From assembly GCA_012728995.1 (NCBI GenBank), contig JAAYEB010000473.1, positions 1-45,449 of the forward strand: a stretch of DNA of 45,449 nt, read 5' to 3'. The notes beneath the pieces are model-generated. The model was not told where the DNA came from and did no database searches. It saw nothing but the letters and a program-made list of their open reading frames with translations. Shown here piece after piece: positions 15,176 through 26,301 of this stretch. Every line of letters starts with the position of its first letter. The stretch's first letter is position 1. The stretch is from Fibrobacter sp. Its GTDB lineage: Bacteria; Fibrobacterota; Chitinivibrionia; Chitinivibrionales; Chitinispirillaceae. A program made the position numbers and the translations under genes.

Positions 15176-15931
15176 TTAATGTGTACTCTTTTCTGAAGCA
15201 ATGATACCTGCACCCAAAGCGATAACTGTTTGCGGATTATCCGGTACTACAACATCCGTTTCAAGTTCCTGCTGTAATAAAACTTTCAGTGCAGGGTTTA
15301 ACGCTCCACCGCCAACAAGATATACAGGAAAGTTTAATGACGATATTCTTTTGTACATACTGGTGATTTTCTTTATGGCACTATAATGAACTGCCAAAGC
15401 AATATCTTCAGGAGATTCGTCTCGATTCAGAAGACCGATCACTTCCGATTCGGCGAAAACAGTGCATAGAGAACTGATTATAATCTTTTTTTTACCTTTA
15501 AGGGCTGCATTGCCGAATTCTTCAATTTTATACCCCAGTTTTTGAGCCATTATTTCAAGAAATTTACCTGTTCCTGCAGCACAACGGTCATTCATCTCAA
15601 ATTTGGCTATTTTGCCGTTTGTATCCAGTGCAATTGTTTTCAGGTCTTGTGCTCCAATGTCAATTATTGACCTGACATCATTTGAAAGAAATCGCGAACC
15701 GCATGCACATGCCTTGATTTCTGTCACTGAAGGAATCCCCTCTTTTTCGAGAAGATGTCGCCCGTAACCTGTAGCAACTGTTGGAATTTGCTCATGTTTT
15801 TCAATAAGTTTTCGGGCAATGCGGGAAGGTCGGGAAGTAGCATCAACTACTTCCCATTGCTCAATTTTATAATCGTTCAATAAAACTGTTTTGATTGTTC
15901 TTGAACCGATGTCGATACCAAGGCTTTTCAT
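15176..15931 (-). CDS. ATP-dependent activase of a 2-hydroxyacyl-CoA dehydratase/double-cubane reductase (HgdC/BadF family)
   Basis: 251 residues of the ASKHA-fold BadF/BadG/HgdC family. Phosphate-binding loops GIDIGSRTIKTVLL (residue 5 on) and DIGAQDLKTI (91 on), and the adenosine motif VYLVGGGALNPAL, are intact. Cys117 in NDRCAAGTGKFLE and Cys156 in SLCTVFAESEV are the two cysteines that hold the [4Fe-4S] cluster shared between the two subunits of the dimer. Such proteins hydrolyse ATP to push one low-potential electron into the partner enzyme. The gene begins 1 nt after the stop codon of its partner, implying coupled translation. It is the last gene of the yedF-selD operon. The length is normal for stand-alone activases. 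Confidence 0.93.
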   Translation of the reverse strand: MKSLGIDIGSRTIKTVLLNDYKIEQWEVVDATSRPSRIARKLIEKHEQIPTVATGYGRHLLEKEGIPSVTEIKACACGSRFLSNDVRSIIDIGAQDLKTIALDTNGKIAKFEMNDRCAAGTGKFLEIMAQKLGYKIEEFGNAALKGKKKIIISSLCTVFAESEVIGLLNRDESPEDIALAVHYSAIKKITSMYKRISSLNFPVYLVGGGALNPALKVLLQQELETDVVVPDNPQTVIALGAGIIASEKSTH

Positions 15932-15932
15932 G

Positions 15933-17222
15933 TCAGTCGTTTATCCTTTCGATAAACGCCTCAATGCGTGTTTTCAATTGACCGTTATCTTCCTGGCTGT
16001 AATCGGTTTCTATGCGGAGTGTGGGTATACCACTGTTTTCCAGCTCTTTTTCAATGTTAAAAGATTCCATAAGGTAAGGAGCGCAGAAATTAAGACTATA
16101 TAAAATTATTCCATCTGCCTTGTATTTTTCAGCCATTTCCTTGATATGCTCAAGTCGTTGAGAATTGGGAGTAAAAATTGCGCAGTCGATTTGCAGGTAT
16201 CTGTCAACAATGGCATCCATGAGTTCATTAACAGTTTCTCCTTCTGTGGATACCTCACCCTGAAAACCACGTTCACCGACACAAGATTCTTCACCAACAA
16301 TAACAGCATTCATGCCTTCAATAATGGAGGGAACTTTCCAGTTGGGAACAGCCATAGGGCACCCTGATAAAAGGACTCTGGTTGTGCCAGTTGGGTACAC
16401 ACCTGAATTTTCAGTAATCCTTGTTTCGAGCTCGTCGCAGATTTTGTTAACAGATTCCGTAAATCTTACAGGATTATCATAGAAATAAACCTGGTTTATT
16501 AGTAAACTGTCAAGACCGCTGACTGGTGCTGGGTCTGCGTGACGCAATTGGGCAAGTCGTTGAACCGCAGCTCTTTTATTGTTTACAATAGTAATCGCTT
16601 TTTTCAAAGATTCGATGGTTATGGTTTTTCCGCTCAATTCTTCAAGCTTTGCCATGAGTTTCAGGTATTCACTTTTCAACAATACTCTTCCTTCGGCGGT
16701 TTTCATCTGAGGCATGTCCATAGCATAAAAGTTGGGGACAAGGTTGTTCAGTATTTCGTAGGCTTTCTTTTTTCCGTCACAGGTATTTTCGCCAATGACC
16801 ATATCGCATGCTTCAAGATATGGGCAGACCTGACCGATCTTGAAACCAAAAGTCGATTTAATAAGAGCACAGGTATTTCTCGGGAGGATTTTTTCAACCT
16901 CTTCAAGCGCAAAATCGGCTCCGGCGCAAAGACCTACCATGACACCATCAACGGCAATAACCAGTTCTTCGGGCACAAAGGTGCAATAAGTTCCAATAAT
17001 TTTGCGTCCATCACGTTTGGCATCCATGAGTTCCTTTATCCTGAGGCCGTGAACTTCCGACATGACAAAATCAAAATAAGCCATACCTTCAGGACGATTT
17101 TTCTGTTTCATGAAAATATCACTATACGATTGCGAAAGAACTCCAAGAAGTTCATCATGAGCTTCGAGATTCAAACCAAGTTCATTCCACATTGGACGAT
17201 AATCAACAGTTGCTTCGGACAT
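15933..17222 (-). CDS. 2-hydroxyacyl-CoA dehydratase-family protein, likely double-cubane-cluster-type reductase
   Basis: 429 residues of the HgdB/BcrB-C/FldC superfamily. Cysteines in conserved surroundings are C80 (YCTFVPEEL), C99 (GLCAGAD), C118, C133 and C139 (QVCPYLEACD), C148 (GENTCDGKKK), C288 (LSGCPMAVPNW), C314 (GEESCVG), C347 and C380. A single subunit of this length paired with a single activase, and no CoA-transferase or dehydrogenase nearby, matches stand-alone double-cubane-cluster proteins. Those use ATP-driven electrons to reduce small molecules such as acetylene or azide. They differ from the two-subunit acyl-CoA dehydratases. The cluster type cannot be proved from sequence. 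Co-transcription with yedF and selD suggests a sulfur- or selenium-linked substrate or cluster. No in-frame UGA is present. Confidence 0.88.
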   Translation of the reverse strand: MSEATVDYRPMWNELGLNLEAHDELLGVLSQSYSDIFMKQKNRPEGMAYFDFVMSEVHGLRIKELMDAKRDGRKIIGTYCTFVPEELVIAVDGVMVGLCAGADFALEEVEKILPRNTCALIKSTFGFKIGQVCPYLEACDMVIGENTCDGKKKAYEILNNLVPNFYAMDMPQMKTAEGRVLLKSEYLKLMAKLEELSGKTITIESLKKAITIVNNKRAAVQRLAQLRHADPAPVSGLDSLLINQVYFYDNPVRFTESVNKICDELETRITENSGVYPTGTTRVLLSGCPMAVPNWKVPSIIEGMNAVIVGEESCVGERGFQGEVSTEGETVNELMDAIVDRYLQIDCAIFTPNSQRLEHIKEMAEKYKADGIILYSLNFCAPYLMESFNIEKELENSGIPTLRIETDYSQEDNGQLKTRIEAFIERIND

Positions 17223-17293
17223 ACAAGCCGCCTTTCTTTGAAATAATTAGCTTCAGTAAGCAGTTTCCTGTTTAACCATATTTTATTCAATTG

Positions 17294-18334
17294 TTACTTG
17301 CAAATATATAGCATGTGTGATTTCTTTTTTTCAACCCTTCCGATTATGGCAGCTTGTAAATTATCGTGTTCATGAAGATCTCGAAGAGCTGATTCCACGT
17401 TTTCTTCGGAAACCGCGAACAGCAACCCACCGGAAGTCTGTGGATCAAAAAGGAGCATTTTCAGGTTGTAGTCCATACCGTTTTCAAAATTGCAGTGTTC
17501 TTCCGCAAAACGCTGATTACGAAATGACGCTCCCGGGATACAACCCATTTCAACAAGCCGGTAAGCATCATCAAGTAACGGTACATCTTTAGCAAAGATC
17601 CGGAAACTCACATTACTTGCCTTTGCCATTTTCATTGCATGCCCAAGCAGGCTGAATCCGGTTATGTCTGTGGCAGATCGCACTTTGTGTTTTTTCATCA
17701 CTTCAGCTCCAGCACTGTTCAGTTGTTTCATCGATTCCAATGCCTGGCGATATCCATTCTCGGTGCCTTCTTCAATGCGGTGTCCGGCTACAATTGCACC
17801 AGTTCCAATTGCTTTCGTAAGTATCAAAAAATCACCAGCCCGGGCAGCGGCATTGGTTGTCAAATCATCAGGATGAACTATTCCGGTAACCGCAAGACCA
17901 TACTTTGGCGGGTAATCATCAATTGTGTGGCCGCCAACTATGACTGCTCCTGATTCATTCACCTTATCAATACCACCCCGCAGAATCTCTTTTAGAACGT
18001 CAAGCCCGATACGGTTCTGTGGAAACATAACAATGTTCAGTGCATTAATTGGTTTTCCTCCCATTGCATACACATCACTTAAAGAATTTGCGGCAGCTAT
18101 TTGCCCGAACTCATATGGATCAGAGCAAATCGGAGGAAAAAAATCGGTTGTTTGTATCAGGGCAATATCATCTGTCAGTTTCCATACACCGGCATCATCG
18201 TGTGTGTTAATATCAACAAGAAGTCTTTCATGTTTTGTATGCGTCAGTCCGGCAAGGGCATCAGTCAACTGGTCTGGCGGCAGTTTCGCGGAACAACCGC
18301 CGTATTCTACTGTTTTTAGCAGGTCAAATGACAT
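17294..18334 (-). CDS. selD: Selenide, water dikinase (selenophosphate synthetase)
   Basis: 346 residues, the full family length. It makes selenophosphate, the selenium donor, from selenide and ATP. The N-terminal catalytic segment reads YGGCSAKLPP with Cys14 (Cys form, not Sec) and Lys17. Metal and ATP residues are seen in DDAGVWKL, TTDFFPPI, VGGHTIDDYPPKYGLAVTG and DITGFSLLGHAMKMA, and the C-terminal PQTSGGLLFAVS is intact. It is preceded by yedF (16 nt gap) and followed by the dehydratase-family gene. No selA, selB or tRNA-Sec is in the window, so the selenium may serve selenocysteine made elsewhere, a selenium cofactor, or the neighbouring reductase. Confidence 0.97.
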   Translation of the reverse strand: MSFDLLKTVEYGGCSAKLPPDQLTDALAGLTHTKHERLLVDINTHDDAGVWKLTDDIALIQTTDFFPPICSDPYEFGQIAAANSLSDVYAMGGKPINALNIVMFPQNRIGLDVLKEILRGGIDKVNESGAVIVGGHTIDDYPPKYGLAVTGIVHPDDLTTNAAARAGDFLILTKAIGTGAIVAGHRIEEGTENGYRQALESMKQLNSAGAEVMKKHKVRSATDITGFSLLGHAMKMAKASNVSFRIFAKDVPLLDDAYRLVEMGCIPGASFRNQRFAEEHCNFENGMDYNLKMLLFDPQTSGGLLFAVSEENVESALRDLHEHDNLQAAIIGRVEKKKSHMLYICK

Positions 18335-18350
18335 CGTACAGTTTTCCTTT

Positions 18351-18950
18351 TCAGAGTTGAATTATATGTCCGGCTTCAGTCATTGTTTCGAGAATAGTGT
18401 ACATGTTCGAAACGGTTCCAACCGCTATCTCTTCCATTTTTTCGAAATGGTTTGCACATGTTCCGCAAACAAGAATGGTAACACCTTTTTTCTCAAGAGT
18501 TTTCAATGTTTCCACAAGTGGAGAGTCTGCACATGTAAGGAAAATTCCGCCATTATAGAAAACAAGGTGTGAAGGCAATGGGGTCACTTCATCAATAATG
18601 TTGATTAAAGCCTGAACCAGAATCTCTCCAAGCTCATCTGAACCCTGTCCCATTTTATTTTTTGAAAAGACGATAATATGATTTTTGGGAGGTGCTGTGC
18701 AGTATGAAGCTGCATCTGGCTGAACAAGCGTCTGGTCCTTTTTTTTGACCGTAATTGTGAAAACATCGCCCTGCTGTGTACTTTCCGGTTTCATGCCATT
18801 ATCGGAAAGGAATCGGATTACATTCTCACAAGAGGTTACATTGTCGATAATAATACTCAATTGTTCGCCAGGTGAGATCTCGGAAAGTGCTTTTTTGGTC
18901 ATTATAAGTGGTTTAGGACAAGCCTGCCCTTTTGCGTCAACGGTTTTCAT
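18351..18950 (-). CDS. yedF: Selenium-metabolism sulfurtransferase-like protein YedF
   Basis: 199 residues in two modules. Residues 1-70 are a TusA-like domain with the CPxP motif at Cys11 (GQACPKPLI). Residues 90-199 are a DsrE-like domain with HLVFYNGGIFLTCADS, LEKKGVTILVCGTCANHF and a GTVSNMYTILETM end. This fusion is the recognised selenium-associated YedF type, usually found beside selD. The CGTC cysteines and Cys11 are candidates for carrying persulfide or selenide. It is the first gene of the operon yedF-selD-dehydratase-activase, so the promoter should lie in the 495-bp divergent region with the TonB receptor gene. Confidence 0.93.
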   Translation of the reverse strand: MKTVDAKGQACPKPLIMTKKALSEISPGEQLSIIIDNVTSCENVIRFLSDNGMKPESTQQGDVFTITVKKKDQTLVQPDAASYCTAPPKNHIIVFSKNKMGQGSDELGEILVQALINIIDEVTPLPSHLVFYNGGIFLTCADSPLVETLKTLEKKGVTILVCGTCANHFEKMEEIAVGTVSNMYTILETMTEAGHIIQL

Positions 18951-19445: not shown

Positions 19446-21596
19446 TTGTTTTTCTGTTATCACAAACTACACTACGTATTCATGATAACGGGGCTTTTGG
19501 TAATAGCCGTGATAGCTAAAGATTCCACAGATCTTGTTGAATTGCAGCCAATGACAGTAACCAGACAACGCATTATAGAGTATGATTGTCTCGATTCTTC
19601 CCTGATTTATCGTGCCAGTGAATCAAATTCCATAGATGGATTACTAACAAATGTTGCTGGTATTGATGTTAAACGAAGTTCACCTTTTTCGGGAAAAGGC
19701 AAAAGTGTAACATTACGTGGATTTGACGAATCCCGTTTTCTGATACTTCTTGATGGACGGCAGCTTAACGGTGCAGGTGTTATGGGAGGAGATTATGTAG
19801 ACTGGTCTTCATTATCAACCGATAATATTCAAAAAATTGAAGTGATAAGAGGTCCAAAATCAGCCGAGTTTGGTAATACCTTTGGTGGTGTGATAAATAT
19901 TGTTGCCAGAACCGGTAAAGATCTTCCGGAAAAGACTTCTGTGTCGGTATCGTATGGTGTTTTTTCTCCCGAACATTCACAGGATATTTATGAAAAAAGA
20001 AAAACAAATGTTTCACTTGCACACAGGTCACATATCGGGAATTTCGCGACAATTGATTTGTATGTGTCACATGCAGAAGGCAAACCATTCCTTCGTAATA
20101 ATTATCATGAAAGCACCAACTTTGGTGGTAATCTGTCTCTTCATTTACCTTTAGACATAGAATTTGCAGCCGGACTGCGCACTGCAATCCAGGACCGGGG
20201 ATTCGCGATTGAGAATCATTCAGGGAATACAGATTACAAAAAAAACTACCCGGAATCCAACGGCAGTGCCGGGGGAGGGCCGGGCATTGCATGGAAAGGC
20301 GGAGAGTTCTATTTCGGTGACCGGAGCTATTGGAAAAACATCCGGACTCAGACCGATTTTTCTCTTTCTAAAATGTTTGATAATGTGAATTTAACGGGGC
20401 GTATATTTCTCAACGATCAAAACCGGACAGAATATTTCTACGCGATTACCGATACCAGCAATCTTGTCCTTGAGCGGTTTGCAAAACCGGAAGACAATAC
20501 CTGGGGATGGAACATCAAGGCTGATCAGAATCTTGGAAAAGGTAATACCGTTAAATATGGTATGGAAGGGCTCAGTTTGCAGTACAATAATACAGATATC
20601 CGGCATGTTGATACTTCATACTTTTTGAGTCTTCCGTCTGATGGTTCACAAAAGACGATTCGCGCTTCAAATCTGTACTCTGCTTACCTGCAAAGTGAGT
20701 TATCTCTCATGGAAAGACTGGAATTGACACCTGGTGTGAGATATGACTACTATTTTGGGAATAAACGGGATTCTACGGTTGACGAAACCAGATTGCAAGG
20801 CATAAGTCCAAATGCAGGTGTAACACTGAAAACATGGAAAGGTGCCGTGGTGTCCATTAACGGTTCTTACCGCTATCGTTTCCCTTCATGCCCTGAGCTG
20901 TACTGGTATTATGACGGGCATTCATTTATTGGCAGGAAAGAACTCTCACCCGAACGCGCCAGACAACTGGACATAGGTTTTTCCCAGGAACTGCCCGAAA
21001 AAGGAGCCTTTAAGGGTACGTTCAGAATAGAGGGTTATCATTATATTGTAAATGACTATATAAGAACTGTATTTGGCGGGCGTCCGGTTGCACCTGTTCA
21101 GCCAAAAGCCAGTCGTCTCATTTACAACATAGACAAAGTTAAATTCACAGGTTTTGAACTTGAAACAAAAATTGCCCTTTTTGACAATCTGAATTTACAG
21201 GCAAATTACACGTATCAAATTACACATAAAACCGGTGATTTGTACGACAGCAGTACAATATACAGTAACAGATTACCTGAACTCCCCGAACATAAAGCCA
21301 ACGCTGGTATGGATTATACCTTTAATAATGGTTTATCTGCCGGGGTTGCAATGCGCTTTGTTGGAGAACGGGAAGTAATACAGGAAAGTTTTTCAATCAG
21401 CGGGGCAGGATATAAAAAAGTTGATGCATTTATGACAATGCGCCTGTACGGAACATACCCGGTTTATTCCTCAGATGCTTTTGCTGCCAGAATCAGGTTT
21501 GGTATCGACAACCTTTTTAATAGCGACTACGAAGAAGAACCAGGTATTGCGATGCCGGGGATAACTACTACAGGTGCGGTAGAAATTATATTTTAA
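19446..21596 (+). CDS. TonB-dependent outer-membrane receptor
   Basis: 716 residues from a TTG start, chosen because GAAGAGAG lies just upstream and because it supplies the n-region of the signal peptide (MFFCYHKLHYVFMITGLLVIAVIA). A TonB-box-like stretch (ELQPMTVTR) follows, then a plug domain: SIDGLLTNVAGIDVKR, SVTLRGFDESRFLILLDGR, IEVIRGPKSAEFGNTFGGVINI. The rest is a 22-strand-type barrel, with repeated aromatic girdles and a final Phe (VEIIF). It imports a scarce chelate, siderophore or cofactor using TonB energy. The downstream methyltransferase, FmdE protein and BtuFCD-type importer suggest one complete uptake route. The ligand cannot be read from sequence. Confidence 0.95.
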   Translation: MFFCYHKLHYVFMITGLLVIAVIAKDSTDLVELQPMTVTRQRIIEYDCLDSSLIYRASESNSIDGLLTNVAGIDVKRSSPFSGKGKSVTLRGFDESRFLILLDGRQLNGAGVMGGDYVDWSSLSTDNIQKIEVIRGPKSAEFGNTFGGVINIVARTGKDLPEKTSVSVSYGVFSPEHSQDIYEKRKTNVSLAHRSHIGNFATIDLYVSHAEGKPFLRNNYHESTNFGGNLSLHLPLDIEFAAGLRTAIQDRGFAIENHSGNTDYKKNYPESNGSAGGGPGIAWKGGEFYFGDRSYWKNIRTQTDFSLSKMFDNVNLTGRIFLNDQNRTEYFYAITDTSNLVLERFAKPEDNTWGWNIKADQNLGKGNTVKYGMEGLSLQYNNTDIRHVDTSYFLSLPSDGSQKTIRASNLYSAYLQSELSLMERLELTPGVRYDYYFGNKRDSTVDETRLQGISPNAGVTLKTWKGAVVSINGSYRYRFPSCPELYWYYDGHSFIGRKELSPERARQLDIGFSQELPEKGAFKGTFRIEGYHYIVNDYIRTVFGGRPVAPVQPKASRLIYNIDKVKFTGFELETKIALFDNLNLQANYTYQITHKTGDLYDSSTIYSNRLPELPEHKANAGMDYTFNNGLSAGVAMRFVGEREVIQESFSISGAGYKKVDAFMTMRLYGTYPVYSSDAFAARIRFGIDNLFNSDYEEEPGIAMPGITTTGAVEIIF

Positions 21597-21743
21597 AACT
21601 GTAACTACTCATGATAAATGGGTGAACAGGTTTATTTAGACATTAATTTGCAGGACAAAAATATTAAAAGCAGCAACTCAGAAAAAGCGCGCCTGGGAAA
21701 CTGTTTCGAAGCTTATTTTGGCAAAATTCAACAGGGATTGAAT

Positions 21744-22610
21744 ATGATTGAGAAAATGAATGTTTCAAATCCGGAATACTGGATAGAGCAATGGAACAAC
21801 CTGAATGCTGCCAATACTGTAATTTCAGGATACAGCACCCAAGCAACATGGAATGCCATGGCTGCAAATTACTGTAAGCATAATGATAAAAATGACAATG
21901 ATAAACGCATCAAAGAGGTGATATCAAAGCTTGAAAATGCAGGCTTCTGTTTCAAAAACTCCAGGATACTTGATGCAGGGTGCGGACCGGGGTATTATGC
22001 AAAAGCTTTTGCAGAAAGAGGCGCAAATGTTGTGTGCATTGATATTTCTGAAAAAATGATCCAGAGATTAAAAGATGAATTGCCAGAATCAATTCAAGAG
22101 CGCGTAACTGCATTCGCAGCGGATTGGCGTTCGCTAAACCTTGTCGAAAAAAGATTTATTTCTGCTTTTGATCTCGTTTTTGCCAACATGACACCTGCAG
22201 TAACAACTCATGAAACATTATTTAAGCTTATCAAGGCAAGCAGAAAATTATGCTGGTTTAGTGGGTGGGTTGGACCTCGCAAAAACTCTCTTCACGAACA
22301 GATTGTCCAGACCGTGAAACCCGAAAGGCCTTATACTTTTGTGGGGAATTTCATGGTTGCGCTTAACCTGCTGGTTACATCAGGATTCTATCCTGATTGC
22401 AGTTTCACACCTGTTCAATGGACACAAAACAAAACTGTCGAAGAACTGCTGGATTTCTATTCTGTATTTTTATCTGAAAATTCAAGGCCTGTACCTGATA
22501 AAATACGAAATATAATTGAAGAATGCTTGAGACAACATGCCCGAAATGGTGTTGTTCAAAACTCTGTTAAGGGATGTACTGGTCGGATGTTATGGTCTGT
22601 TCAGCAATAA
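21744..22610 (+). CDS. Class I SAM-dependent methyltransferase in metal/cofactor uptake operon
   Basis: 288 residues if started at ATG 21744, which has AGGGA seven nt upstream. An in-frame ATG at 21618 lacks a ribosome-binding site and would add 42 unusual residues. NPEYWIEQWNNLNAA opens the domain. Motif I is ILDAGCGPGYYAKAFAERGA, motif II is VVCIDISEKM, and FDLVFANMTPAV corresponds to motif IV. Methyltransferases of this type recur in operons with TonB receptors, FmdE-like proteins and FecCD/BtuCD importers. They may modify the imported chelate or a metallophore, but the substrate is unknown. The 147-nt gap after the receptor gene has no terminator. Confidence 0.88.
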   Translation: MIEKMNVSNPEYWIEQWNNLNAANTVISGYSTQATWNAMAANYCKHNDKNDNDKRIKEVISKLENAGFCFKNSRILDAGCGPGYYAKAFAERGANVVCIDISEKMIQRLKDELPESIQERVTAFAADWRSLNLVEKRFISAFDLVFANMTPAVTTHETLFKLIKASRKLCWFSGWVGPRKNSLHEQIVQTVKPERPYTFVGNFMVALNLLVTSGFYPDCSFTPVQWTQNKTVEELLDFYSVFLSENSRPVPDKIRNIIEECLRQHARNGVVQNSVKGCTGRMLWSVQQ

Positions 22611-22626
22611 TACTGGGGGTATATGG

Positions 22627-23358
22627 GTGATACAAATTACTGACAATTTACTTAATCCACGGAAAAAAATTCAGGAACTCCTGTTGAAAAAAGATACTGC
22701 ACAGGTTCTGGAAATGGCTGGAATGTTACACGGGCATTATTGTGTCGGACTTGCACTTGGTGTAAAAGCTGTTGAGGTCGGTTTTACCAGGCTTGGAATT
22801 TCAGACAACACAGGTATGGAAGAAATCATGGCAGTTGTTGAATGTAACAACTGTTTTGTTGACGGTATTCAATTCGCGTCCGGTTGTTCTCTTGGCAATA
22901 ACGCACTGGTTTACAAGGATCTTGGAAAAACTGCAGTTACATTTTATCGGAGGGGATCTGATGAAGCGGTTCGGTTGTGTGTTAAATCGTTTGAAATAAA
23001 AACCGGAAGCAAAGAGGAGCAAAAGGAAGCTCAGGAATTGTTCGACAAGGCGGTTAAACGCAGGGAAAAGCTTTCCGTTGTTGAAAGCAAACGTTTGAAA
23101 GTGCTGTCGATACAGCGTTCGTTTGCTGTAATCAGACAGCCGGATGAGGATGTTTTCACTATATCAGAATGTGATGTACCAGGGTTGTCATTTGCACCCA
23201 TATTCGATTCGCAGGAATGCTGTGTATGCGCTGAAAAGGTAATGGAGACTAAAGCCGGATTTCGAAACGGAAAACCGATTTGCAGAACATGTTCACAGGA
23301 AGAGTTTCACATGGTGCTTGGATCCGGCATAACTTCAGGAAATGCAGTACGGGTATGA
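22627..23358 (+). CDS. FmdE-family protein with C-terminal zinc ribbon
   Basis: 243 residues from GTG 22627, preceded by a G-rich box (CTGGGGG); an upstream ATG extension would overlap the methyltransferase and is implausible. The FmdE domain shows His35 and Cys39 in HGHYCVGLALGVKA, then ECNNCFVDGIQFASGCSLGN and the GK-AVTFYRR strand. The C-terminus carries a four-Cys zinc-binding motif (CCVCAEKV ... CRTC). FmdE was first seen with molybdenum formylmethanofuran dehydrogenase; bacterial copies sit beside metal importers and may act as metal-binding chaperones or sensors. Its stop codon overlaps the ATG of the next gene (ATGA), so the two are coupled. Confidence 0.85.
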   Translation: MIQITDNLLNPRKKIQELLLKKDTAQVLEMAGMLHGHYCVGLALGVKAVEVGFTRLGISDNTGMEEIMAVVECNNCFVDGIQFASGCSLGNNALVYKDLGKTAVTFYRRGSDEAVRLCVKSFEIKTGSKEEQKEAQELFDKAVKRREKLSVVESKRLKVLSIQRSFAVIRQPDEDVFTISECDVPGLSFAPIFDSQECCVCAEKVMETKAGFRNGKPICRTCSQEEFHMVLGSGITSGNAVRV

Positions 23359-24452
23359 AACTGCGCTTTCCAGGATACTTGCTGGTGCTGGTAGTATTTC
23401 TGCTGACTGGATGTGTGAGCCAGAAGGCAGATGACAACACAAACAGAAAAACAGTTTGCGATACGCTTATGGATGCTGCCGGCAGGACAGTATGCATACC
23501 TGCGCGGGTAAACCGGGTTATCTCACCTTTTACAATGTATACACGTTTGATAGCAGCATTGGGCGGGTGTGATAAACTGGCTGGAATTTCTCACACCTGT
23601 CTTCTGCCTGAAGAGTTATACGGATGCAATGGAGTGCTTGGGCAGTTGCCGGATATCGGACCTTTTGGAGCAAATATTGAATTAATAGCTTCATTGAATC
23701 CCGACCTCATTTTCGCATCGCAATCCGATATAGGGACATTCACAAGCAAAACTGATGCTTCTGTTGTGGCTGTTTCATTTTCAGATAATTTATCCATGCT
23801 GGAAATGTTCAACCGGCAAATTGATATTATCGGCAAAGCGCTTCGGCTGGAAAAGCAGGCTGACAGTCTTAAAACTTTTATCTCTTCTGTATTGGAACCG
23901 GTGATTACTGTTACATCAAATATTCCCGACACTGCCCGACCACGTGTATATTTTGCCTGGACAAGCTGGACAGGGGATATTCTTAATACTGTATGTGAAT
24001 TTGATCCGATAGAACTTGCCGGTGGCATAAATGTTGCCCGTGAAGCCACTAACTTTTCAAAAGGGGAACGGGGTATTCTGGTCTCAAGGGAACATATTCT
24101 TAACTGGAATCCTGAGTTCATATTTATTTCCAGATATCAACCTCAGAAATGGCATCAGAACGGAACAACTTCTCCGATTCCGGTGACTATACAAAATGTA
24201 ATTGACAAGCGATTTCTGCAAACTGTTGATGCTGTTAAGAACAAAAATGTTTTTTATACAACAGCTTTTTGCAACTGGTGGCCTCATCAGCGTGCACTCG
24301 TACAGATTTTATACATGGCAAAGCTTTTTCACCCCGGGCTTTTTGCTGATCTGGATGTTGAGGAACAGGGGAATAAAATTTTCAAACGGTTTTATGGAGA
24401 AGACAGTCTTTATACGACTATGGCAGAAGAACTGGAACTATACCGCTGGTAA
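23355..24452 (+). CDS. Periplasmic metal/cofactor-binding lipoprotein of a BtuF/FecB-type ABC importer
   Basis: 365 residues, starting at the ATG that overlaps the fmdE-like stop codon. MKLRFPGYLLVLVVFLLTGC is a lipoprotein signal with Cys20 as lipid site. The mature part has the helical-backbone fold of cluster A-II binding proteins: DAAGRTVCIPARVNRVI, then GANIELIASLNPDLIFAS and REHILNWNPEFIFIS. It delivers its ligand to the permease encoded next. Sequence does not separate siderophore, corrinoid, haem or nickel/cobalt chelate binding. Trp- and Arg-rich loops (WTSWTGDILN, FCNWWPHQRALVQ) may line the pocket. Confidence 0.9.
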   Translation: MKLRFPGYLLVLVVFLLTGCVSQKADDNTNRKTVCDTLMDAAGRTVCIPARVNRVISPFTMYTRLIAALGGCDKLAGISHTCLLPEELYGCNGVLGQLPDIGPFGANIELIASLNPDLIFASQSDIGTFTSKTDASVVAVSFSDNLSMLEMFNRQIDIIGKALRLEKQADSLKTFISSVLEPVITVTSNIPDTARPRVYFAWTSWTGDILNTVCEFDPIELAGGINVAREATNFSKGERGILVSREHILNWNPEFIFISRYQPQKWHQNGTTSPIPVTIQNVIDKRFLQTVDAVKNKNVFYTTAFCNWWPHQRALVQILYMAKLFHPGLFADLDVEEQGNKIFKRFYGEDSLYTTMAEELELYRW

Positions 24453-24457
24453 CAGAT

Positions 24458-25516
24458 ATGAAATCCCGAATTATACAATTAAAGTATCGTAAAGCGATCG
24501 CACGAAAATCAGTTTTTATTTTTCTGTTATTGATTGTTGGGTTCATATTGGGTATTACCGGGCTTGGTATTGGACCGATCAAGTACAGTTTCAGTGATAT
24601 CGTTGGGGTGTTGACAAACAGTTTTTTGAATACCGGATCTGAGGTTGCACCAACCGCACAGATGGTAATTTTTAATATCAGACTGCCCAGAATAATACTT
24701 GCCCTGCTTTGTGGATTTGGTCTTGCCATTACAGGTATGCAAATGCAAATCATATTAAGAAACCCTCTTGCGAGTCCATTTACGCTTGGAGTTTCTTCGG
24801 GCGCAGCATTTGGAGCTGGTCTGGCGATTATTTCCGGCATCACTGTTATTGGTGGAAAATACATGCTTGTCGGAAACGCGTTTGTTTTTTCACTGCTGCC
24901 ATGTCTTGTTGTCTTTTTTCTTTCCCGCATAGGCAGTTGTGGACATGGTATGCTTATACTCGCAGGTATTGCCATGAATTTTATCTTTTCTTCTTTTTCA
25001 ACACTCTTGAGTTATTTTTCAAATTCAGAAGAACTCAAAGCCCTTTCCCTATGGACAATGGGTAATCTGGGACGCGCTTCATGGGATGATATCGTGTCAT
25101 TGTCAATAATACTTCTGATTACGGTTCCGTTACTTTTCATGCAGAACCAGAAGCTGAATGTGCTTAATGCCGGTGATGAAAGCGCAAAGGGGCTGGGGGT
25201 GAATGTGGAAAGAACACGAATTGTCGTACTTGTGCTCACCTCCCTTGTATCTGCTTCAATTATATGCTTTACCGGTATGATTGGATTTGTCGGGCTTGTA
25301 TCTCCTCATATTGTGCGGCTTCTTATTGGTAATGACGCTCGATATCTTATGCCGGCATCAGGGCTTTTCGGTGCTGTATTTCTTCTTGGTTCTGATGTAA
25401 TGGCATTGAAAATTATAGAACCAGCGGTACTGCCCGCAGGAATAATTACCTCTTTTACAGGTTGCCCGATACTTCTTTATCTGATAATTAAAAAACAGAA
25501 GGACAGGGTATGGTAG
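24458..25516 (+). CDS. FecCD/BtuC-type ABC transporter permease
   Basis: 352 residues, with about ten hydrophobic helices after a basic N-terminus (KSRIIQLKYRKAIARK). Family markers are LPRIILALLCGFGLAITG, NPLASPFTLGVSSGAAFGAG, the coupling-helix region LGVNVERTR, GMIGFVGLVSPHIVRLL and PAGIITSFTGCPI. It forms the inner-membrane channel of the importer, working with the preceding lipoprotein and the following ATPase. The start lies 5 nt after the binding-protein stop codon, and its end overlaps the ATPase gene by 7 nt. Confidence 0.95.
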   Translation: MKSRIIQLKYRKAIARKSVFIFLLLIVGFILGITGLGIGPIKYSFSDIVGVLTNSFLNTGSEVAPTAQMVIFNIRLPRIILALLCGFGLAITGMQMQIILRNPLASPFTLGVSSGAAFGAGLAIISGITVIGGKYMLVGNAFVFSLLPCLVVFFLSRIGSCGHGMLILAGIAMNFIFSSFSTLLSYFSNSEELKALSLWTMGNLGRASWDDIVSLSIILLITVPLLFMQNQKLNVLNAGDESAKGLGVNVERTRIVVLVLTSLVSASIICFTGMIGFVGLVSPHIVRLLIGNDARYLMPASGLFGAVFLLGSDVMALKIIEPAVLPAGIITSFTGCPILLYLIIKKQKDRVW

Positions 25517-26301
25517 ACCTGAAAATAAATGGCCTTTCCTTTAAATATGAAAAACATCCCGTATTCACTGATGTAAATTGTATCATCAGCAAAGGCGAAG
25601 TCGTTTCTGTTGTGGGTAAAAATGGAGCAGGTAAATCGACACTCCTTAAATGCATCAATCACATTTTAAAACCAGTTAAAGGGAATGTGTATATAAATGA
25701 TAAAATTGTTGCCGCATTGCCACAGTTGGAGCGGGCAAAAAAAATAGGGTATCTTTCACAGCAAAGTGAATATCTATTCCCGACAACAGTGTTTGATGTT
25801 GTACTTACGGGGAGATTTCCTCATTCACCTGTCCGGTACACAAGACAGGATGAAGAGATTGTGGCACGTATTCTTGCAGATATGGAATTGTCCGAATTTT
25901 CGCAAAGGTATTTTAGCCATCTCAGCGGTGGTGAACAGCAGCAGGTTTTGATTGCGCGTGCTCTTGCCCAGGGTGCAGATGTACTTCTTTTTGATGAACC
26001 CACTAACAATCTGGACTTAAAGCATCAATTGCAGATTATGCGCCTCATACGAACTGTTGCACAAGAAAAACAAATAACATCAATACAGGCTATCCATGAC
26101 CTGAATCTTGCAGCAGCTTTTTCCGACAAAATTATCTTGATGCATAAAGGTCGTATATTTAAAATGGGTGTACCTCTGGATGTCTTGACCAGAGAAATAA
26201 TACTTGAATGTTTTGATGTTCACGTGAAAATATACAATCATGGTGGTACACCACATATTGTAATGCTTGAATCATCTGAAACAAGACCAGTTGAAAACTG
26301 A
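25510..26301 (+). CDS. ABC importer ATPase (FecE/BtuD type)
   Basis: 263 residues. Walker A is GKNGAGKSTLLKCI (from residue 36), the Q-loop lies in GYLSQQSEYLFP, the signature is LSGGEQQQVLIARAL, Walker B is VLLFDEPTNNLD and the H-loop is IQAIHDLNLA. It powers the permease encoded just upstream. A 7-nt overlap with the permease gene indicates coupled synthesis. It is the last recognisable transporter gene of the operon; small Cys-rich ORFs follow within 200 nt. Confidence 0.96.
   Translation: MVDLKINGLSFKYEKHPVFTDVNCIISKGEVVSVVGKNGAGKSTLLKCINHILKPVKGNVYINDKIVAALPQLERAKKIGYLSQQSEYLFPTTVFDVVLTGRFPHSPVRYTRQDEEIVARILADMELSEFSQRYFSHLSGGEQQQVLIARALAQGADVLLFDEPTNNLDLKHQLQIMRLIRTVAQEKQITSIQAIHDLNLAAAFSDKIILMHKGRIFKMGVPLDVLTREIILECFDVHVKIYNHGGTPHIVMLESSETRPVEN

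Follow-up and report, generated by a model that had tools for sequence, protein, structure and literature searches.

The window, a stretch of 45,449 nucleotides from Fibrobacter sp., carries a four-gene operon on its minus strand that reads 5′-yedF-selD-dccp-activase-3′ with spacers of 16, 71, and 1 nt (Table 1). All four open reading frames are complete and intact and start with ATG, and each product passes the curated NCBIfam cut-off of its family: YedF with 200.6 bits (cut-off 110), SelD with 379.8 bits (cut-off 125), the double-cubane cluster protein (DCCP) with 467.7 bits in the equivalog model for double-cubane-cluster-containing anaerobic reductases (cut-off 350), and the activase with 211.1 bits (cut-off 125.4). 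The motifs are intact as well (CPKP and CGTC in YedF, GGCSAK in SelD, DRCAAGTG and SSLCTVFAESE in the activase). With curated cut-offs passed and active motifs present, YedF and SelD are what a selenium supply operon calls for, and the set of four genes is far from a chance neighbourhood. A scan for promoters and terminators gave nothing better than shuffled sequences. Divergent from the operon and about 0.5 kb from yedF lies a putative uptake cluster (window 19446-26301) with genes for a TonB-dependent receptor, a SAM methyltransferase, an FmdE-domain protein, a Peripla_BP_2 binding protein, a FecCD permease, and an ABC ATPase.

Table 1. Genes of the operon and candidate selenocysteine forms of DCCP in two relatives
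Feature	Position	Strand	Description
yedF	18351..18950	minus	199 aa; two-domain TusA (CPKP, C11) + DsrE (CGTC, C162) carrier, selenium metabolism; TIGR03527, PF01206 + PF02635
selD	17294..18334	minus	346 aa; selenide, water dikinase, Cys form (GGCSAK); TIGR00476; PDB 2yye, E 1.7e-67
dccp	15933..17222	minus	429 aa; double-cubane cluster protein, HGD-D family; NF040772; PDB 6eno/7yyl
activase / DCCP reductase	15176..15931	minus	251 aa; BadF/BcrA-type ATPase, motif Cys C117 + C156; TIGR00241; PDB 4eht, 1hux, 7yyl_E
candidate Sec-DCCP, G024	L051:10652-11935		TGA at C133
candidate Sec-DCCP, G030	L053:4516-5799	minus	TGA at C133

The whole length of DCCP of the window can be aligned with its counterpart in Carboxydothermus hydrogenoformans (PDB 6eno/7yyl; E ~1e-133, 46% identity over the alignment). 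Six of its 11 cysteines (C80, C118, C148, C314, C347, and C380) are invariant in an alignment of 11 homologs and map onto Cys36, 73, 100, 263, 293, and 327 of BzdN, which are the ligands of the [8Fe-9S] cluster according to a 2025 structure paper (PMC11971306). The cysteine of a CPY motif, C133, is a further conserved one beyond the six predicted ligands. A single HGD-D subunit followed directly by one activase gene is the architecture of DCCPs, and the Carboxydothermus DCCP and its reductase share it, together with the six ligand cysteines; this comparison is at the protein level, whereas dccp of the window shares its operon with selD and yedF. BzdN of the class I benzoyl-CoA reductase (PDB 8s02) has the six ligands at equal alignment positions but is a heterodimeric CoA-ester enzyme on a long branch outside the DCCP group.

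The fold of HGD-D and the activase family are common to acyl-CoA dehydratases and aryl-CoA reductases, and DCCP of the window might be a component of such an enzyme that has its neighbours by chance. We consider this hardly credible, since the protein is a single subunit that matches the DCCP equivalog, the models for HadC, BzdN, and BcrC remain far under their cut-offs (HadC with 123.4 bits versus 700), and the flanks of dccp hold no gene for an acyl-CoA dehydratase, a CoA-transferase, or a second HgdA/HgdB subunit. In a maximum-likelihood tree, whose outgroup branches are long and whose root is unsure, it falls into a supported group of long-form DCCPs with 7yyl, apart from HadC, BzdN, and MbdN. 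A 2-hydroxyacyl-CoA dehydratase was rejected on the same evidence (only one HGD-D gene, no adjoining CoA genes, the HadC score, and the tree). By all sequence tests applied, the reductase of the window is a DCCP, with the [8Fe-9S] cluster predicted from its ligands. Hence, the original prediction of a single-subunit double-cubane reductase/activase pair without acyl-CoA pathway genes nearby agrees with the equivalog match, the alignment with 6eno/7yyl, the six cysteines, and the phylogeny, and its coordinates, strand, spacers, and four gene identities were correct by open reading frame check and NCBIfam.

Other forms of the family were seen in the surveyed loci. A second, shorter, YjiM-like DCCP lies in tandem with the long one or one gene away (L107:12225-13313, L114:8610-9698, and L132:11884-13014), and short and long forms separate on the tree. 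Furthermore, some proteins of 866-900 aa are fusions that contain two HGD-D domains (L051:5134-7734, L052:4227-6827, and L054:1735-4434); their genes adjoin a third, single HGD-D gene of ~366 aa, followed in L054 by an activase gene and selD.

The link of dccp with selenium genes extends well beyond the window. We scanned genome contigs of many phyla outside the Clostridia with a DCCP alignment and obtained 80 DCCP loci. As strict selenium markers we counted full two-domain YedF, SelD, SelA, SelB, YedE (TIGR04112, two members checked), and verified LysR regulators of NF040786. The 1.206 Mb around the 80 DCCP genes hold 44 such genes, compared to ~1.8 expected under the assumption that each occurs once per 4.1 Mb genome, and they are spread over 24 of the loci. 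The activase is present in most of the 80 loci and usually lies directly downstream. Recurrent partners of DCCP are SelD, YedF, YedE, SelB, Sec-lyase-like proteins, and the selenium LysR regulator, in arrangements such as selA-selB-SclA-like-yedF-selD-DCCP-activase (L129, Bacteroidales), YedE-TusA-DCCP-second DCCP-activase-selB-selD-yedF (L107), selB-DCCP-activase-yedF-YedE-selD (L069), DCCP-selD-yedF (L127), and DCCP-activase-selD-yedF (L086). Three more genomes of the phylum of the host are linked, with DCCP-activase-yedF (G027), yedF-SclA-like-DCCP-activase (G041), and DCCP-activase-selD (G026). Linked loci are scattered on the DCCP tree (14 changes, at least 11 of them forced), and therefore, linkage is not one block inherited in close relatives but requires repeated assembly or repeated loss. 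In the DNA examined around the other 56 DCCP genes, no strict selenium marker was found; the pair of DCCP and activase is separated from yedF and selD in four relatives (L047-L050), and E. coli yjiML has no adjoining selenium genes. ABC transporter genes, which lie near many DCCP loci, were left aside; the single one scanned encodes a phosphate PstB. Linkage elsewhere, the check that the original prediction had asked for, was thus found; the link itself, which it had called unusual, is real and recurs in many phyla but is neither unusual nor unreported.

Selenium has an ordinary use in the host (genome of 4.97 Mb, 97.65% complete). SelA is encoded on contig C92 (C92:39627-40991) with SelB adjoining, and the gene for tRNA-Sec lies at C92:41068-41160, so that a known use of selenophosphate exists in the same genome and selD implies no new selenium trait. 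A search of the whole genome found no SelD above the cut-off other than that of the window. An orphan selD was rejected because selC, selA, and selB are present, and the selenium-dependent molybdenum hydroxylase trait because YqeB had no match in the host genome. Of the markers whose absence the original prediction had named for its survey of genomes, YqeB is indeed missing, but selA and selB are there, and the pointer to genomes without these two genes does not apply to this host.

These genes bear on the idea, also raised at the outset, that DCCP receives selenium from YedF and SelD, for instance at the position of the bridging sulfide, and thereby becomes a selenium-dependent reductase. Gene order and linkage with selD-yedF would suit such a selenium-containing cluster, as would the exceptional place of the bridging atom in the double cubane, but the ligands are the ones known from an [8Fe-9S] cluster, which contains sulfur, the neighbours are a general selenium supply set, and a second use of selD is needless where the host SelD already serves selenocysteine. 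We regard a selenium-containing cluster as very improbable; a reductase of selenium species fits the context better.

DCCP and SelD also occur together at the level of genomes. Among 61 genomes of the phylum of the host, SelD was found in 13 of 13 with DCCP (ten score above the cut-off and two slightly below, and one is split between two contigs) versus 3 of 48 without (Fisher p = 8.5e-11, uncorrected for ancestry). In other phyla, 46 of the 50 genomes behind the DCCP loci have SelD; the share in sequenced bacteria is 33.7% (PMC5029168). Within the Acidobacteriota, SelD is present in all nine DCCP genomes versus 188 of 288 others (p = 0.03, again uncorrected for ancestry). Since most Acidobacteriota with SelD (188 of 197) are without DCCP, the latter is dispensable for selenium use in general. 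Among 14 control genomes, E. coli and M. jannaschii alone passed the cut-off for DCCP, and the same two alone passed that for SelD; in the Bacteroidota, DCCP is too rare (1 of 296 genomes) for a co-occurrence test. All of these tests ignore shared ancestry and anaerobic lifestyle, and some genomes are incomplete; DCCP and selenocysteine might each be favoured by an anaerobic lifestyle without sharing a pathway. Some SelD matches of the Acidobacteriota lie within open frames of ~770-810 aa and are possibly SelD fusion proteins (G489:C5:7748-8671, G600:C13:114307-115233, and G474:C475:12039-12962).

SelA occurs in most DCCP genomes. In six with SelD and DCCP it was not found (G087, G089, and G091 of the Bacteroidota, G026, G102, and G105); in G087, selD is preceded by yedF and by genes for a Sec-lyase-like protein and a Se/S carrier. 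Because SelD and DCCP persist in these genomes, DCCP tracks SelD more closely than SelA, which points to supply at the level of SelD over insertion of selenocysteine. In Ancylomarina and Labilibaculum, which have DCCP and gave no SelA match, a half-length YedF with only the DsrE domain adjoins selD (L156:7564-7908 and L157:7231-7572).

Two further explanations compete with a role in selenium supply. The pair of DCCP and activase could re-reduce over-oxidised selenoenzymes or a maturation intermediate and so act as a low-potential helper of selenocysteine enzymes. ATP-driven electron transfer at low potential is indeed the known chemistry of the family, and the frequency of SelA among DCCP genomes is in line with such a function. 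Yet DCCP is kept in SelD-containing genomes where SelA was not found, and no selenoprotein gene recurs among the commonest neighbour clusters, a weak argument because calling of open reading frames breaks at TGA. Electron delivery or repair is, in our opinion, quite unlikely. Somewhat better placed, but still rather unlikely, is co-regulation, in which DCCP belongs to a selenium regulon and serves the anaerobic metabolism that uses selenoproteins (detoxification or reduction of small molecules or methyl-sulfur compounds) and does not handle selenium itself. Acetylene, azide, and hydrazine are substrates of DCCP, whose biological function was called unknown in 2025 (PMC11971306); many DCCP loci are unlinked to selenium genes; and one differential-expression table lists E. 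coli yjiM/yjiL together with genes for formate hydrogenlyase, all with changes of the same sign (PMC9068703). However, the linked genes are for selenium handling (YedF, YedE, SelD, and LysR_Se) and not for selenoproteins, and here, too, the retention of DCCP with SelD where SelA was not found speaks against it.

In each of two relatives (G024 and G030), a DCCP gene has an in-frame TGA exactly at the position of C133 and may encode a selenocysteine form of the protein (Table 1). The flanking motif matches 101 more times in the DCCP loci, in some cases to one gene in two overlapping loci, and always with a cysteine at this position. The two genes differ 3′ of the TGA mostly at third codon positions (62, 34, and 177 differences at first, second, and third positions over 297 codons), and hence this part looks translated and under purifying selection. 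SelA is present in both genomes. A SECIS-like fold behind the TGA scores near shuffled sequences (z about −0.2 and −1.4), and therefore, the assignment rests on the position of the TGA and on conservation at the codon level. The TGA suggests that C133 is redox active or close to the reaction site. Word searches of the deep-Sep paper and of a 2026 review did not find a selenocysteine-containing DCCP.

The association of DCCP with selenium genes is real and conserved, and it has already been noted provisionally. In a STRING table of Lin et al. (2015, PMC5322559), the partners of YedF in Slackia heliotrinireducens include an HGD subunit and a CoA activase; in the passages found, the pair is neither pursued nor named a double-cubane protein. 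The selD-yedF-SclA-DUF3343-YedE neighbourhoods described there have the YedF and SelD families in common with the operon of the window. In the Type 1 mlp gene clusters (PMC10418091), DCCP and its reductase (DCCPR) are drawn among genes for methyl-selenium metabolism, in a figure that has "selenium metabolism (putative)" as one class; unlike these clusters, the operon of the window has no corrinoid methyltransferase genes. Our literature search found no paper that tests the function of the gene link. New here are its breadth and statistics, its persistence in SelD-containing genomes in which SelA was not found, and the DCCP genes of two relatives that may encode a selenocysteine form.

Activases of the BadF/BcrA type use the hydrolysis of ATP to transfer electrons at very low potential. 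Since the steady neighbours of DCCP handle selenium at or before SelD, we propose it as a reductase of selenium compounds. In our model, yedF-selD-dccp-activase would be one selenium supply operon. By ATP hydrolysis, the activase would drive electrons of low potential into the [8Fe-9S] cluster. With these, DCCP would reduce a selenium compound, such as methylated or elemental selenium or an organic selenide, and the product would be selenide or reduced selenium bound to a protein. YedF would carry the reduced selenium, SelD would convert it to selenophosphate, and SelA, tRNA-Sec, and SelB would use the latter for the synthesis of selenoproteins. That DCCP has a role in selenium metabolism is likely. 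Our best single guess at that role, and a tentative one, is that the pair uses ATP to reduce a selenium compound and so provides SelD with selenide. The wider view, in which DCCP and activase are a dedicated and widespread ATP-driven selenium reductase that provides SelD with selenide from a source that is hard to reduce, with C133 replaced by selenocysteine in some lineages, is a possibility to which we give less credence.

In sum, the recurrence of the pairing across many bacterial phyla suggests that an orphan reductase works in selenium supply. The supply of selenide to SelD is poorly understood, and the recurrent linkage ties this question to the function of DCCP. To our knowledge, the double-cubane [8Fe-9S] cluster is among very few large iron-sulfur clusters outside nitrogenase-type enzymes; a dedicated selenium reductase, if true, would be the first physiological function for a double-cubane cluster protein.
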